Below, piece after piece: positions 6,101 through 15,601 of a stretch of 64,000 bases of DNA. Source of the stretch: Bacteroidia bacterium (lineage in GTDB: Bacteria > Bacteroidota > Bacteroidia > J057). Each line of letters starts with the position of its first letter. The first letter of the stretch is position 1. Location of the stretch: the NCBI GenBank assembly GCA_030430205.1, contig JAUIGE010000016.1:1-64000 (forward strand). Reading direction: 5' to 3'. The translations under genes and the position numbers were made by a program. The notes under the pieces were generated by a model. That model had not been told where the DNA came from. It searched no databases and saw nothing but the letters and a program-made list of their open reading frames with translations.

Positions 6101-8146
6101 ATGAAAAAGATATTAGCCCTTTTACTCATCTCGCTTTCGCTCCAGCTCGCTGCCCAGCAGACAGATAAATGGCAGCAACTCCAGCTGCAGCTGGATGTCT
6201 GGGCTGAGAGCATGCCTGCACTGAATGATTCGGTGAACCTGAGTTTGCAGGATGTGCCTTTGCACGAGTATGTGCGTGCCATCGGCAGAGCCCATCAGCT
6301 CAATGTATTTATCGAAAATACCCCCCAGCTGCGCATGACACAGCGCCTGACCAACGAACCCGTGAAATCAGTATTTTACTTTATCTGCCGCCAATATCAA
6401 TACAAAATAGTATTGACAGGTGGGATTTTTAGCTTTTTGCCGGATATCCCTGCACCCAAAATATGGATCAAAAAAGCCAATATTTCCTATCAGGATAGCC
6501 TGCTGAGCATGGACCTCCGGCAGGACAGCCTGCTCAGCGTGATCAGAGAAATCAGTCGCCTGACGGGCCAGAAAATCATTGCGCAGCAAGGAAGCGAAAA
6601 ACTGCTAACAGTTTTTATATCCCCTTCGACCGTGGAGCTGGGGTTGGAGTTGCTGGCAAAGGCCAATGGCCTGATACTGAGCCGCAACCGCAAAGGATAC
6701 TTTGTGCTGGCGAATGGAGAAGGCAGGCTGGCTGCCGCCACTTCTGCACACGCCCAGGCGGTTTCTGCCCAAAGAAGCAGCGGCAATTTTTCCGTGGAAG
6801 CTTTTACCGACGGAGCGAAAAACTTCCTCTCCATCACAGCGGTCCAGGCCGATCTGGCGAGCCTGCTGCGCGAGATATTCGCCCAGGCTGGAACCGATCA
6901 TTTCATGCTCGGAGAGCCGGAGGGCCAGGTGAGCCTGCAGCTGGAAGCTGCTAGCCTCGACGAAGTCCTGACACACATACTGCGGGCCTCGCCCTTCAGC
7001 TACAAAAAAGCGGGCCGCTTTTACCTGATCGGCCCGGAGGAGCTGCCCGACATGCAAAGCATGGAGATCGTCGAATTGCGTTTTCGCCCCACAGCGCAGG
7101 CGCTGGATTTGATCCCGGGGGGGAGTGGGCAGTATGCAGTGGGTAGTGGGCAGTATGCAGTGGGTAGTGGGCAGTATGCAGTGGGTAGTGGGCAGTATGG
7201 AGTGGGCAGTGGCCAGGTGGGGGGAAGTGGGCAGTATGCGGTGGGTAGTGGGAAGGTGGAGGAATCTGAAAGTCATCAGCGGAGGCTGATAGATGGGGTG
7301 GAGCTGATTGAGTATCCCGAACTCAATCGGATCATCCTGCGGGGGCCGCAGGATCATGTGGAGGAGATCGCAGCTTTGCTGCGAAGTATCGACCAGCCGA
7401 TCCCTATGGTGAAGGTAGAACTGATCGTGGTCGAGCTCAGCAAAAATTCTGCTTTGCAGACAGGCATACGGGCGGGGCTTGGCAGTCCGCCGGACTCGGC
7501 CCGGCGCGACATCCTGCCAGGGCTGGATTATAGCCTGGATGGCCAGAGCCTGAACCGCATTTTGCGCAATTCTCCCAGCCCTTTTTTGCAAAGCTTAGGC
7601 GTGCTCAACCCTCAATTTTACCTGCAGCTCAAAGCGCAGGAAGCCCTCGGCAACCTTGAAGTGGTGATGAGCCCCATGCTCTCCATGCTCAATGGCCGGG
7701 AGGCCACGCTGACCATCGGCCAGAAGCAGTATTACCTGCTCGAAACCACCACCGCATCCAATGGAGCAGTCAATAACTACCAGCAGTTTTCGCAGCAGTT
7801 TACAGAAATTGAAGCCAATATATCCCTGACTATCAGGCCTTTTATCTCAGATGGTGAAATGGTCACTCTGGACATCCTGCCCGACTTCAGCACGCCGGTA
7901 GGCGGTTTTGTGGCGGGCGTGCCACCGACCATCGCTACGCGAAAATTTGACTCCAGCATCCGCGTTCGCAATGGCGAAACCTTCATACTCGGAGGCCTGA
8001 GTCAAAAAGAAGAAAGCCAGAATTCCAGCGGCTTTCCGCTGCTCGGAAGACTCCCCATTTTGAAATGGATTTTTGCCAGCCAGAACAAAAGCAAAGGCGA
8101 GAGCTCGCTGGTTATTTATGTCACCCCTCATATCTATTACCAATGA
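6101..8146 (+). CDS. gspD: GspD-like outer-membrane secretin with an internal in-frame tandem repeat
   Basis: A 681-residue protein with a signal peptide ([20 protein letters not shown]). N-terminal N-domains occupy roughly residues 40-330. The C-terminal secretin domain (about 420-680) carries recognisable segments: [40 protein letters not shown] and the [18 protein letters not shown]...[14 protein letters not shown] block that defines secretins. It would form the outer-membrane channel of the system. Residues about 341-384 are a glycine-rich tandem repeat (GSGQYAV units) encoded by 21-bp DNA repeats between N-domain and secretin parts, where a flexible linker may be tolerated. The next gene overlaps by 4 bp (ATGA). 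Confidence 0.9.
7124..7254 (+). repeat. 21-bp in-frame tandem repeat inside the secretin gene
   Basis: Unit AGTGGGCAGTATGCAGTGGGT is repeated about four times cleanly, then two or three more times in degenerate form. Because the unit is 21 bp, the frame is preserved and the protein gains GSGQYAV heptads. The same core (AGTGGGCAGT) occurs as a non-coding array at 45756-45812, and the related AGTTGGCAGT at 57471-57550 and near 18350. The coding repeat therefore looks like a dispersed intergenic repeat that settled in a gene. Copy number probably varies between strains. Confidence 0.85.
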
Positions 8147-12169: not shown

Positions 12170-12536
12170 CGAACAAGGAATGGAGAAGGTAAAGAAGAAA
12201 CCGACGCTACGCGGCCAAAGTCTGCCGGAGGTGCTGACCAGCATGCTTTTGCTGGGGATTTTGATGATGGTTGCCTATAGCGCCTTGCAGCGAGGCATGG
12301 GAATGGCCTCTCCTGCACAGCAGTATGTGCATGCAGAGATGCTGCGGGAGATGATGTCGGAGGACTGGCAGTCAGGTGAAACGGAGTATGAACGAAAAGG
12401 TCGCTTGCTGAAGCGGAAGGTGATTTGCTTGGATGAGAAAGAAGGGATCTATGAGGTGGATGTCCGATGTTTTGTAGGAGAGAAGCAAGTGGCGGGATAC
12501 AAACGGATTATTCGAAAAACACCAGATAAACGATGA
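12162..12536 (+). CDS. Minor pseudopilin (GspI/GspH-like)
   Basis: A 124-residue protein with a type IV prepilin leader: cleavage is expected at Gly18|Gln19-Ser-Leu-Pro-Glu23, which keeps Gly -1 and Glu +5, followed by a hydrophobic helix (VLTSMLLLGILMMVAY). The C-terminal part is short. The start overlaps the previous stop by 8 bp inside an AATGACGAAC direct repeat; ATG 12180 is an alternative start giving a shorter leader. It overlaps the next pseudopilin gene by 4 bp. Confidence 0.72.
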   Translation: MNDEQGMEKVKKKPTLRGQSLPEVLTSMLLLGILMMVAYSALQRGMGMASPAQQYVHAEMLREMMSEDWQSGETEYERKGRLLKRKVICLDEKEGIYEVDVRCFVGEKQVAGYKRIIRKTPDKR

Positions 12537-12895
12537 AAACCAAAGGATTTACTCTGATGGAAATGCTGATCGCAATGAGCCTGATGGGTCTGATATTGAA
12601 CATAGGCGGGAAGTTGTATCAACATTTGCAAGGCAATGTTCTTCGCGCTCAGGAGCAACAGCAGACGATGATGGCGCAGCTTATCAGCCAGCGAATCCTG
12701 CAACAGGATTTACGGGAAAGCACGGAGGTGCTGTCGGTGACGGACTCTTCTCTTTGTTTGATAAAACACCCATTTGATCCTCCTGTCTGCTATGTGTGGC
12801 GGGATTCGTTGCTGTTTCGGCAGCGGGAGGGGGGGAGCGATACGCTGCCTGGCGTGGTAGTCAGGAGATTCCTCGTCGAAGACTCCTCGGAATGA
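12533..12895 (+). CDS. Minor pseudopilin, GspJ-like, 3' end formed by an invading repeat
   Basis: A 120-residue protein with a textbook prepilin leader: MKTKG|FTLME, Glu at +5, then hydrophobic IAMSLMGLILNIGG. GspJ-type proteins usually have about 190-200 residues, so this one is short. The last codons, from about 12857 (VVRRFLVEDSSE and stop), are identical or nearly so to the left end of the repeat elements at 13456 and 14055. The element has therefore supplied the C-terminus and the stop codon. No remainder of gspJ is seen after the array. Activity may be impaired. Confidence 0.75.
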   Translation: MKTKGFTLMEMLIAMSLMGLILNIGGKLYQHLQGNVLRAQEQQQTMMAQLISQRILQQDLRESTEVLSVTDSSLCLIKHPFDPPVCYVWRDSLLFRQREGGSDTLPGVVVRRFLVEDSSE

Positions 12896-13083
12896 CAACC
12901 CTGGGAGGCTGCCGCCTCCTGCTCGTCCAGGGCACGGCCCTGGCGACGCTTGCCATTCTCAAGGCATAGCCTTGAAAGACCTGACAGCGCTGCTGTCGAA
13001 ATCCTCAGGGCAGGGCCCTGAAAACCTGTCTTTTCGAGCGAATCTGAGGCTCCGCGAAGGTTCGTCGAGAAACCTCCTGAGAA
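12857..13083. repeat. Hairpin-rich inverted-repeat element, copy 1
   Basis: The left arm (12865-12896, GAGATTCCTCGTCGAAGACT...GGAATGAC) and right arm (13028-13083, GTCTTTTCGAGCG...TTCGTCGAGAAACCTCCTGAG) are imperfect inverted copies. Between them stand five perfect hairpins: GGAGGC-TGCC-GCCTCC (12904), CCAGGGC-ACG-GCCCTGG (12927), TCAAGGC-ATA-GCCTTGA (12959), GACAGC-GCT-GCTGTC (12983) and CAGGGC-AGG-GCCCTG (13006). Each stem closes with GC on either side of a 3- or 4-nt loop. The left arm lies inside the 3' end of the pseudopilin gene. Confidence 0.85.
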
Positions 13084-13111
13084 CCCGAAAAAATCATTAA
13101 AAAAAATCACC

Positions 13112-13459
13112 ATGAAAATACCCGGAGACCACAACTACTATTTCTATTTCACTACCAACACAAGACGAACCGTCCTCTACGCTGGAGTGACAAACGATCT
13201 GAAACGCAGAGTTCAGGAACATTTCCAGGCTAGCGGAAATCGAAAAACCTTCGCCGGAAGGTACCGTTGTTTTCACCTCATTTATTATGAGTGGTATGGA
13301 CATATTGAGGATGCTATAGCCAGAGAAAAGAAGATTAAAAAATGGCGAAGGGAAAAGAAGGAATGGCTGATTGCTCGGGTAAATCCCCAATGGTTTTTTC
13401 TCTCGGAGCATTTGTATTGGAAGCGGATAGAGATGTTTTGTGGTAATGAATTACCGTAG
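13112..13459 (+). CDS. GIY-YIG family nuclease, copy 1
   Basis: A 115-residue single-domain GIY-YIG endonuclease of the small UPF0213/YhbQ-like type. The first motif strand is YYFYF (9-13) and the second LYAGV (22-26). Arg32, His37 and the catalytic metal-binding Glu72 in AREKKIKKW are in the expected places, and the family's NPQW is at 91-94. Its stop codon lies in the first bases of repeat element copy 2, and it begins 28 bp after the right arm of copy 1. It is identical in sequence to the gene at 13711-14058. Its setting between hairpin elements suggests it belongs to them rather than to the secretion operon. Substrate unknown. Confidence 0.85.
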   Translation: MKIPGDHNYYFYFTTNTRRTVLYAGVTNDLKRRVQEHFQASGNRKTFAGRYRCFHLIYYEWYGHIEDAIAREKKIKKWRREKKEWLIARVNPQWFFLSEHLYWKRIEMFCGNELP

Positions 13460-13682
13460 TCATGAGATTCCTCGTCGAAGACTCCTCGGAATGACAATCC
13501 ATGGAGGCTGCCGCCTCCTGTTCGTCCAGGGCACGGCCCTGGCGACGCTTGCTATTCTCAAGGCATAGCCTTGAAAGACCTGACAGCGCTGCTGTCGAAA
13601 TCCTCAGGGCAGGGCCCTGAAAACCTGTCTTTTCGAGCGAATCTGAGGCTCCGCGAAGGTTCGTCGAGAAACCTCCTGAGAA
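13456..13682. repeat. Hairpin-rich inverted-repeat element, copy 2
   Basis: Same arms and five hairpins as copy 1, shifted by 599 bp. The left part differs from copy 1 at a few bases (TCATGAG for TCAGGAG, ATCCATGG for ACCCTGGG, TTCG for CTCG) but matches copy 3. From about 13554 onward it matches copy 1. The left border overlaps the stop codon of the first GIY-YIG gene. Confidence 0.85.
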
Positions 13683-13710
13683 CCCGAAAAAATCATTAAA
13701 AAAAATCACC

Positions 13711-14058
13711 ATGAAAATACCCGGAGACCACAACTACTATTTCTATTTCACTACCAACACAAGACGAACCGTCCTCTACGCTGGAGTGACAAACGATCTG
13801 AAACGCAGAGTTCAGGAACATTTCCAGGCTAGCGGAAATCGAAAAACCTTCGCCGGAAGGTACCGTTGTTTTCACCTCATTTATTATGAGTGGTATGGAC
13901 ATATTGAGGATGCTATAGCCAGAGAAAAGAAGATTAAAAAATGGCGAAGGGAAAAGAAGGAATGGCTGATTGCTCGGGTAAATCCCCAATGGTTTTTTCT
14001 CTCGGAGCATTTGTATTGGAAGCGGATAGAGATGTTTTGTGGTAATGAATTACCGTAG
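13711..14058 (+). CDS. GIY-YIG family nuclease, copy 2 (identical to copy 1)
   Basis: A second 115-residue GIY-YIG protein, identical to the product of 13112-13459 in every residue, with the same 28-bp leader after the right arm of the preceding element. Motifs are the same: YYFYF, LYAGV, Arg32, His37, Glu72 and NPQW. Lack of any difference, even at silent positions as far as I can read, indicates a very recent tandem duplication, gene conversion, or an assembly duplication. The stop codon falls in the first bases of element copy 3. Confidence 0.83.
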   Translation: MKIPGDHNYYFYFTTNTRRTVLYAGVTNDLKRRVQEHFQASGNRKTFAGRYRCFHLIYYEWYGHIEDAIAREKKIKKWRREKKEWLIARVNPQWFFLSEHLYWKRIEMFCGNELP

Positions 14059-14463
14059 TCATGAGATTCCTCGTCGAAGACTCCTCGGAATGACAATCCA
14101 TGGAGGCTGCCGCCTCCTGTTCGTCCAGGGCACGGCCCTGGCGACGCTTGCTATTCTCAAGGCATAGCCTTGAAAGACCCGACAGCGCTGCTGTCGAAAT
14201 CCCTGGGGCACGGCCCTGTTTGTTCCTTGCTTGAAAGACCTGACAGCGCTGCTGTCGAAACCCTCAGGGCACAGCCCTGCTTGTCCCTTGCTTGAAAGAC
14301 CCGACAGCGCTGCTGCCAAAATCCTCAGGGCAGGGCCCTGCTTGTTCCTTGCTTGAAAGACCTGACAGCCCGGCTGTCGAAATCCTTAGGGCAGCGCCCT
14401 AAAAACCTGTCTTTTCGAGCGAATATGAGGCTCCGCGAAGGTTCGTCGAGAAATCTCCTGAGG
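14055..14463. repeat. Hairpin-rich inverted-repeat element, copy 3, expanded by 61-bp tandem units
   Basis: This fills the 433-bp gap between the second GIY-YIG gene and gspF. The left arm (14063-14094) and right arm (14409-14463) match copies 1 and 2. The middle is expanded: four tandem units of exactly 61 bp start at CTTGAAAG 14169, 14230, 14291 and 14352. Each unit carries a GACAGC-NNN-GCTGTC hairpin (its stem broken at one base in unit 3) and a GGGC-NNN-GCCC hairpin. Loops vary (GCT, CCG; ACG, ACA, AGG, AGC) while stems are mostly kept. In the last unit CAGGGC/GCCCTG became TAGGGC/GCCCTA, a paired change. No open frame is convincing. Confidence 0.85.
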
Positions 14464-14491
14464 ACAGAAAAAACAATTAAAACAAAAAACC

Positions 14492-15601
14492 ATGGCCATA
14501 GCCCTCAACACCCCCCCGCGCAAAGCGCAGCCTCCCATCTGGCAGCGCCAGATATTCATCGGCAAAAAACTGAAGCTCAAAGAGCGTCAGCAGCTTTATC
14601 AGCAATGGAGCACCCTGCTGGGTGCAGGTTTAGGCATCATTGATTGCCTGGAGATCATCATCGGGCAGACGAGGCTGCCGCATATCCGGGACATGCTCCT
14701 CCGGCTAAAAGCCGGATTGGAAGGCGGCAACAGCCTCTCCGACAGCTTTGCTGCGGAAAAAGGCTGGTTCGATAGCTTCGAACAGCAAAGCATCAGGATC
14801 GGTGAGCAGACGGGTCGTCTGGCGCAGGTGCTGGGCCAGTTGGCTGCTTTTTATGAAAAGCAGCTGCGCTTGCGGCGCAAACTCATGCAGGCGCTTTCTT
14901 ATCCGATCGTGGTGATCACCATCGCCATCGGCGTTGTCGCCTTTATGCTGGGCAAGGTGGTGCCCATGTTTGAGGACATTTTCAGCCGCTTCGATGCGGC
15001 TCTGCCCGCGATCACGCAGCTGATCATGGACGCATCCAGCGTCTTTCGGACTCATTTGGGCTGGCTGATGCTCAGCGCTTTGCTGGTAAGTATGCTGGGT
15101 TGGCGGCTGAGCAAAAACGCTGTTTTTCAGCTTCAGGCAGCAAAGCTGCTGCTGCGGCTTCCGCTGATCGGCAAACTCCTTTTGGAGTTGCACCTGGCGC
15201 GGCTTTCGGCCGCGCTGGCGATGCTGCTGGAGGCACGGGTGCCGCTGGACCGCGCCTTGCGGCTGCTGGAAGGCATGCTGCGCTTTGCGCCGCTGAGGGC
15301 GTCTCTGCCTGCCGTCAGGCAGGCGGTGGTGCAAGGCGAAAGCCTTTGCGAGGCCGCAGGCAGAGAAAAGCTCTTTCCTCTTTCTTTTATCCAAATGCTG
15401 CAGGTAGGTGAAAAAACCGCACGGCTCGATGAGATGCTGACACATCACGCCCGCGTGAGCGAAGAAGCCGCTGAAAACCGGCTCAATCAGCTGACTCAAT
15501 TGCTGGAACCCTTGCTGATTCTCAGCCTGGGAGGTCTGGTCGCGATCATTTTGATCGCGATGTATCTGCCGATGTTTGAGCTGAGCAATGTGATGGGTTA
15601 G
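14492..15601 (+). CDS. gspF: GspF/PilC-type inner-membrane platform protein
   Basis: A 369-residue polytopic protein with two T2SSF domains. The first includes WSTLLGAGLGIIDCLEII and ends in a membrane segment around 140-160 (YPIVVITIAIGVVAFMLGKVVPMFEDIF). The second has LARLSAALAMLLEARVPLDRALRLL and a C-terminal helix (LLILSLGGLVAIILIAMYLPMF), as in GspF/PilC. It would form the platform next to the ATPase. It is cut off from the rest of the operon by the roughly 1.6-kb GIY-YIG/hairpin array, so its transcription may depend on read-through. The 3' end overlaps the convergent gene by 4 bp. Confidence 0.9.
   Translation: MAIALNTPPRKAQPPIWQRQIFIGKKLKLKERQQLYQQWSTLLGAGLGIIDCLEIIIGQTRLPHIRDMLLRLKAGLEGGNSLSDSFAAEKGWFDSFEQQSIRIGEQTGRLAQVLGQLAAFYEKQLRLRRKLMQALSYPIVVITIAIGVVAFMLGKVVPMFEDIFSRFDAALPAITQLIMDASSVFRTHLGWLMLSALLVSMLGWRLSKNAVFQLQAAKLLLRLPLIGKLLLELHLARLSAALAMLLEARVPLDRALRLLEGMLRFAPLRASLPAVRQAVVQGESLCEAAGREKLFPLSFIQMLQVGEKTARLDEMLTHHARVSEEAAENRLNQLTQLLEPLLILSLGGLVAIILIAMYLPMFELSNVMG

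Follow-up and report, generated by a model that had tools for sequence, protein, structure and literature searches.

A tandem array of GIY-YIG nuclease genes and hairpin-rich elements, and the association of related nuclease genes with tagged palindromes

Results

Two identical nuclease genes alternate with three hairpin-rich elements

The window, the whole 64-kb stretch of DNA that was analysed, carries a type II secretion-like operon. A block of elements and nuclease genes (12857-14491) is located in this operon between a pseudopilin-like gene and a T2SSF gene, 3´ of the secretin gene. The pseudopilin-like gene (12533-12895, plus strand) encodes 120 aa (N_methyl, E 5e-6), and its last codons are read inside the first element. 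The T2SSF gene (14492-15601, plus strand; E 2e-52) follows the block directly. SGQYAVG-type peptide repeats follow one another in the central part of the secretin-like protein (6101-8146).

The block is a tandem array with a period of 599 bp, in the order element, GIY-YIG gene, element, GIY-YIG gene and longer element. Copies of a 300-nt stretch begin at 12857, 13456 and 14055 (spacings of 599 and 599 bp). The second copy is 98% identical and the third, whose interior is longer, only 61% when aligned in register. The right part of the element (12971-13106) is found again at 13570 (100%) and 14352 (88%). On the plus strand, sequence comparison and folding delimit element 1 and its A-rich leader at 12857-13111, up to the ATG of the first nuclease gene (13112-13459), and element 3 with its leader at 14055-14491. 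Element 2 with its leader (13456-13710) was placed by sequence comparison and precedes the second nuclease gene (13711-14058, plus strand), whose 115-aa translation is identical to that of the first. The greater length of element 3 is due to approximately 3.8 copies of a 61-bp tandem repeat (14169-14400, plus strand), which was located by a repeat scan and contains small hairpins in each copy. The alternation noted in the preliminary description is therefore a real 599-bp tandem unit, and its observation that each gene stops within the start of the next element is borne out by both genes, with the stop codons in the first four bases.

In each element, the left arm is on the minus strand, the right arm is a degenerate copy of it in forward orientation, and small hairpins stand in a row between the two. 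The palindrome grammar described below identifies the left arms as tagged palindromes at 12867-12896 (GTCATTCCGAGGAGTCTTCGACGAGGAATC), 13466-13495 and 14065-14094. The right arms lie on the plus strand. That of element 1 (13027-13081; TGTCTTTTCGAGCGA...TCGTCGAGAAACCT) was recognised by eye and falls outside the strict grammar; those of elements 2 (13626-13680) and 3 (14408-14462) were assigned by sequence comparison and by eye, respectively. The window palindrome has five perfect pairs (ATTCC/GGAAT) and a long imperfect loop. Across the 64 kb of the window, the strict grammar has seven matches, comprising the three left arms and four sites scattered elsewhere, one of which is tRNA-like by eye.

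Folded as single-stranded DNA, element 1 (12857-13083) has a z-score of -4.56, with 0/200 shuffles as stable, and element 3 (14062-14463) has a z-score of -4.50, with 0/100 shuffles as stable. The four arms, folded singly, do no better than shuffles (z +0.67 to +1.34). The terminal inverted repeats are therefore imperfect, and the fold signal belongs to the whole element with its inner hairpins; of the structure first proposed, imperfect terminal inverted repeats with hairpin rows, the folding beyond shuffles stands for whole elements and not for the arms alone. Between 12301 and 15300, the sole Rfam match up to E 1 is a sub-threshold radC outside the elements. Chance or artefact as the source of the array is ruled out by the 599-bp copies, the fold z-scores and the enrichment of palindromes near homologues.

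An A-rich leader is common to the T2SSF gene and both GIY-YIG genes and directly follows the right arm (14463-14491 and 13082-13111), so that the element seems to carry its own translation leader. Its spacing is equal, as initially described, owing to tandem copying of the unit. The distance itself had been given as 28 bp; measured from the CTGAG end of the right arm to the ATG, it is 30 bp at each GIY-YIG gene and 29 bp at the gene that follows.

The block was probably gained within the operon

A T2SSF protein match was found in 5 of 13 family genomes. Of the four relatives, G001, G006, G007 and G009, the upstream side of the gene was read in the last two (three loci, 43-49% identity). At these loci the T2SSF gene directly adjoins the pseudopilin gene, overlapping it by 14 and 11 bp or beginning 33 bp after it, and no element, palindrome or nuclease lies between the two. 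The pseudopilin is 120 aa long in the window and 140-152 aa in the relatives. The block was probably gained at the window locus, with loss or replacement of the end of the pseudopilin gene, because it is absent at the three related loci and the pseudopilin is short, with its last residues inside element 1. No target duplication could be defined at the window insertion, and no excision or transposition footprint was found. An intact palindromic empty site was not seen at the gene-free loci of G009 and G007, and a second empty-site comparison, at the gene beside the G009 nuclease, had no synteny. Comparing loci with and without the insertion, as the preliminary description envisaged, thus yields an uninterrupted operon at three related loci but no intact target or footprint.

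Relatives of the nuclease

The only Pfam match of the 115-aa protein is GIY-YIG (PF01541, E 2e-15), and NCBIfam has no match at 0.001. Read by eye, the sequence retains the residues typical of GIY-YIG proteins (a tyrosine pair, an arginine, a glutamate and an asparagine). By sequence, the nearest solved structures are the UPF0213 proteins BH0048 and EF2693 (PDB 1zg2 and 1ywl; E 1.8e-4 and 0.0012), to which the likeness is weak. Close homologues (E<=1e-8) occur in 133/296 genomes of the phylum, with up to 10 copies per genome; named hits such as Bacteroidales and Spirosoma indicate that this phylum is probably Bacteroidota. A plasmid collection contains a homologue in 1/72,556 records, and a phage collection contains none in 50,697 records. 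At the sole plasmid hit (L224; NZ_CP089542.1, from Spirosoma oryzicola), an inverted doublet, TGTCATCCCGAGG...CCTCGGGATGACA, immediately precedes the gene LQ777_RS27260.

Family genomes, the 296 phylum genomes and genome contigs provided 111 genes at 103 loci. The phylum sample, among the matches listed, comprises 29 loci and 60 fetched stretches, with the best match per genome and extras from G155, G199, G086 and G210. The window's own genes (L002, L003, L034, L042), long GIY-YIG genes (L004, L005), repeat entries of the L001 gene (L025, L026, L041, L046, L047, L048) and L049, which overlaps L045, were left out. Within the 111 genes, the gene of L060 was entered a second time under L144, L021 and L022 hardly differ, two or three genes share a locus in seven cases, and 7/111 frames are shorter than 80 aa, some of them broken by stops. 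Near-identical tandem or nearby copies of the nuclease gene are also present at other loci. L144 (G210:C1:1478708-1494278) has three GIY-YIG genes amid very large repeat arrays of several kb. At L158-L162 (G248:C1:120138-122153), five tandem GIY-YIG copies of another subfamily, 450 bp apart, are without tagged palindromes, as are most of the more distant small GIY-YIG genes in the sample.

Tagged palindromes flank the nuclease genes

The up- and downstream 300 bp of 109 of the 111 genes were compared with each other, leaving out two genes with less than 150 bp of flank. The similarity of a gene's own flanks, in either orientation, beats all 60 cross-locus pairs in 77 genes; taken separately, the inverted orientation does so in 28 and the direct orientation in 67, against approximately 2 each by chance. 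The flanking palindromes follow the grammar GTC-A[CT]nnn...n'n'n'[AG]T-C, that is, GTC-[AY...RT]-C. Among 256 tag/tail combinations, GTC..C ranks first, with 354 sites at 87/103 loci. Its density is 4.02 per kb near nuclease genes versus 0.29 per kb at 1.5-2.9 kb, on the same loci from which the grammar was derived; the whole-genome counts and the long-gene control below are based on other sequence. The preliminary description would have been refuted by homologues lacking the elements in most genomes, which is not what was observed: a GTC palindrome lies within 400 bp of 93/111 genes, on both sides of 70, on one side of 23 and on neither side of 18. The nearest flanking pairs of the 70 genes are inverted in 46 cases and same-directed in 24. 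A rule that tags always point outward round the gene is ruled out by 23 outward, 23 inward and 24 same-direction pairs.

With 5-bp stems, GTC is found in 97/103 loci and is the first of 64 tags by both loci and sites. When perfect stems of 6 or 7 bp are required, a setting too strict for these imperfect palindromes, GTC no longer ranks first (35 and 25 of 103 loci); at 6 bp, loci with a GTC-tagged hairpin show no enrichment (28/103 near versus 20/59 far, the far set having 1.7 times the sequence). Among all perfect hairpins of at least 6 bp, TGTC (37) and CGTC (27) are the commonest 5´ tetramers of 1566 sides, and occur 8 and 7 times among 2362 far sides. At the 354 sites, GTC is preceded by T 234 times, by C 76 times, by A 30 times and by G 14 times. 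When AT is not required, 5-bp-stem hairpins open with AT in 227/268 TGTC and 67/113 CGTC cases, and the first base 3´ of the stem is C in 238/268 and 79/113. The tail trinucleotides of the 354 sites include CTT (85), CTC (62), CCA (57) and CTA (57). GTAG hairpins have a density of 0.25 per kb versus 4.3 for CGTC and TGTC together.

Exceptions were also observed. The homologues at L037, L039 and L045 lie in arrays of another palindrome form without the GTC grammar (e.g., CATTCTGCAAGAATCTAG in L039). At the Sulfotelmatobacter loci L023 and L024, related palindromes were recognised by eye only and escape the strict grammar.

Stem type changes with the nuclease

Stem types were compared for 88 genes encoding at least 80 aa and having a scored stem. 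Stem-type similarity is 0.06 below 45% protein identity, 0.11 at 45-55%, 0.24 at 55-65%, 0.54 at 65-80% and 0.85 above, and stem similarity climbs with protein identity (Mantel rho 0.19, 0/999 permutations). Shared ancestry accounts for part of this correlation. Comparison within genomes avoids the genome background. Same-genome pairs below 60% identity are without a common stem type in 27/30 cases (25/28 minus the double entry); the 7 same-genome pairs at 80% identity or more (6 minus the double entry), several of them tandem or neighbouring copies, have a mean stem similarity of 0.90. Among the cross-genome pairs listed at 65-76% identity, 15 have little or no common stem, which would fit either switched specificity or weak scoring. 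Since the sequence of the clusters changes with the enzyme, enzyme and repeat look like long-standing partners.

Palindromes are more numerous in genomes with the nuclease

The 20 long GIY-YIG genes of palindrome-rich genomes, which from their N-termini we take to be 17 UvrC-like proteins and 3 fused to an exonuclease-like part, have sites at 2/20 loci, one each (0.125 per kb). An attraction of palindromes to any GIY-YIG gene is ruled out, as the long genes and most of the distant small ones are without them.

The 296 genomes of the homologue search were also scanned for two palindrome patterns, with backward controls of zero or one. The median is 22 sites per genome with the nuclease and 2 without, and nuclease copies correlate with palindrome sites per genome (Spearman 0.56). 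The other refuting outcome named at the outset, elements equally common in genomes lacking the nuclease, did not arise either: at least 10 sites are found in 95/133 genomes with it and in 31/163 without it (odds ratio 10.6). Within the three single families covered, the direction is the same and significant in two: f18, 9/11 versus 14/53 (p 0.001); f5, 16/21 versus 1/8 (p 0.003); and f17, 8/13 versus 1/3 (p 0.55). The patterns cover only some stems, so that G086 and G078, with other stems in their flanks, are scored as poor.

Weaker hits (E<=0.001), at 22 loci in all, were obtained in eight of the 31 genomes that are rich in palindromes but have no close nuclease. The correct frame was read at 19 of these loci, and 2 of the 19 have a site, one tRNA-like, which argues that most belong to other GIY-YIG subfamilies. 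L217-L219, L146, L151 and L165 were left out of the control and weak-hit reading owing to a wrong ORF. The remaining 23 genomes all have long GIY-YIG frames, and G032, G288, G048 and G261 also have frames of 104-134 codons; the one readable among these four genomes, in G261, has no palindrome beside it. Palindromes can thus persist, or be served otherwise, without the close nuclease.

Palindromes elsewhere in the genome of the window

The full window element matches its own genome at the window locus only, and elsewhere the first ~40 bases match. The genome has 47 sites of GTCATTYCGA...AGRAATC, with 0 for the backward control. By eye, these sites include 11 inverted doublets with tags outward, 72-76 bp from start to start, and no doublets of the opposite orientation within 100 bp. 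The doublets at the 10 loci viewed (L013-L015, L017, L173, L181, L183, L187, L189 and L195) lie in the middle of a MITE-like element of ~195-270 bp with its own terminal inverted repeats. Its ends are AGGAAC[AG]GTGACGAAATAAACTATCAGTTT and a related inverted end, many of them bordered by TA-like bases. Because the doublets ride in this element, spread in the genome may be independent of the nuclease. A second GIY-YIG gene of the genome (L001; C73:78571 or 78574; 47% identity) is hairpin-rich on both sides, with differently stemmed tagged palindromes (CGTCATACCGG...).

Discussion

The association of this GIY-YIG subfamily with palindromes, and the cognate pairing of the two, are well supported by the sequence comparisons. 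As a whole, the observations are probably best explained by a partnership of a small GIY-YIG nuclease with cognate CGTC/TGTC-tagged REP palindromes, for which nicking of single-stranded DNA is predicted. The nuclease would recognise the tagged hairpin (unpaired GTC tag, AT-opening stem and C tail) in DNA left single-stranded during replication, repair or uptake, and most likely would nick it, as is reported for the Ssn family. Its gene sits within an array of such targets, and stem sequence varies with nuclease lineage. Growth of arrays and of gene copy number probably comes from repair that uses neighbouring copies after breakage or replication stalling at hairpins, as suggested by the 599-bp duplication in the window. 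We infer hairpin binding, cutting of single-stranded DNA and a role in spreading the repeats from these associations. The earlier proposal that a GIY-YIG nuclease takes the place of the RAYT enzyme is accordingly extended in its first part, the partnership with palindromes, well beyond the window locus; its second part, hairpin cutting and element movement, is a prediction.

Active spread would go beyond such a partnership: at nicked tagged hairpins, repair would copy the repeat, or the repeat with the gene, in a homing-like drive that replaces the RAYT transposase. The up to 10 gene copies per genome, the correlation of copy number with palindrome number, the 599-bp duplication together with other near-identical tandem or nearby copies, the inverted doublets in the own genome and the absence of the block from related loci are consistent with this process. 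Nevertheless, target duplication, an intact palindromic empty site and an excision footprint were all not found, many own-genome copies ride in the MITE-like element, recombination between repeats suffices for local duplication, and palindrome-rich genomes without a close nuclease exist; we regard active spread as possible but doubtful. Alternatively, the palindromes may be fixed targets through which the nuclease keeps incoming or exposed single strands in check, as it might during natural transformation, with nothing moved. The patchy presence in 133/296 genomes and the 1 to 10 copies better fit a selfish element, and such a host function appears rather unlikely despite its reported precedent in Neisseria Ssn and the near absence of plasmid and phage homologues. 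Finally, the genes could be passengers that collect, without recognition, in repeat-rich intergenic islands grown by recombination or by the MITE. The palindrome-rich genomes without a close nuclease and the MITE-borne copies would agree with this explanation, but diverged same-genome paralogues mostly have different stems and the long GIY-YIG genes of palindrome-rich genomes lie outside such islands, which makes it quite improbable.

The partnership of nuclease and palindrome has a wider implication. We tentatively suggest, with some reservation, that GIY-YIG nucleases could be the dedicated enzyme that the CGTC-tagged REP superfamily has lacked, providing a second, hydrolytic route of spread and maintenance that is parallel to RAYT and co-diverges with the stem. 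The data name a candidate enzyme, and the grammar lets the likely target of a nuclease be read from its own flanks; same-genome paralogues with different stems represent ready-made specificity controls. If cutting is true, the set of sequence-specific single-strand nucleases widens. Should the Ssn work have already matched numerous homologues to palindromes beside their genes, the new part would comprise the CGTC-REP link, the within-genome co-divergence and the window array.

Comparison with known systems

Work from 2025 reportedly describes Ssn, GIY-YIG nucleases that cut single-stranded DNA at Neisseria repeats and have thousands of homologues. This family, said to act on genomic repeats, qualifies the preliminary statement that no such system has been described. 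Its likeness to the present case would lie in a small GIY-YIG protein tied to a genomic repeat. A literature search of titles and abstract openings found no link of GIY-YIG proteins to such repeats. Homing endonuclease genes are inserted in an allele of their own target, which gene-free alleles keep intact; here, the G009 and G007 loci are without gene and palindromes alike.

According to the accessible part of their description, CGTC-tagged REPs occur in five phyla, including Bacteroidetes, and also in Neisseria, with TGTC variants, AT stem starts and inverted dimers; their stems are 8-9 bp, their loops 4-5 bp, their tail a short one of C, mostly CCA, and clusters are rare (Di Nocera et al., 2013; PMC3733652). 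That part presents the superfamily without a dedicated transposase. The likeness lies in the unpaired CGTC/TGTC tag, the AT stem start, the short tail and the inverted dimers, and the differences, as far as that part goes, are the imperfect stems, longer loops, dense arrays and inclusion of a GIY-YIG gene observed here. The window palindrome departs from the 8-9 bp stem and 4-5 bp loop; such stems are present at other loci. The claim of novelty is thus limited, in that these REPs were published in 2013, in the accessible part without an enzyme (PMC3733652); what survives of it is that no publication joining them to GIY-YIG was found.

The accessible parts of the REP literature state that RAYT enzymes bind and cut folded single-stranded REPs, with a varying role of the tag in strand choice (PMC8266576), that RAYT genes lie between inverted REPs, with which they coevolve and whose number they follow (PMC2817692), and that REP doublets are a proposed mobile unit (PMC3116915). 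Membership of the present nuclease in the RAYT family is ruled out, as GIY-YIG is its only Pfam match and GTAG hairpins are rare. The present system differs in having a GIY-YIG enzyme instead of an HUH tyrosine transposase, GTC instead of GTAG, and several gene copies per genome, and strand transfer is not expected of a hydrolytic nuclease. It resembles REP/RAYT in the placement of the gene among its own palindromes, the co-divergence, the copy-number correlation, the combination of tag and hairpin, and the inverted doublets.
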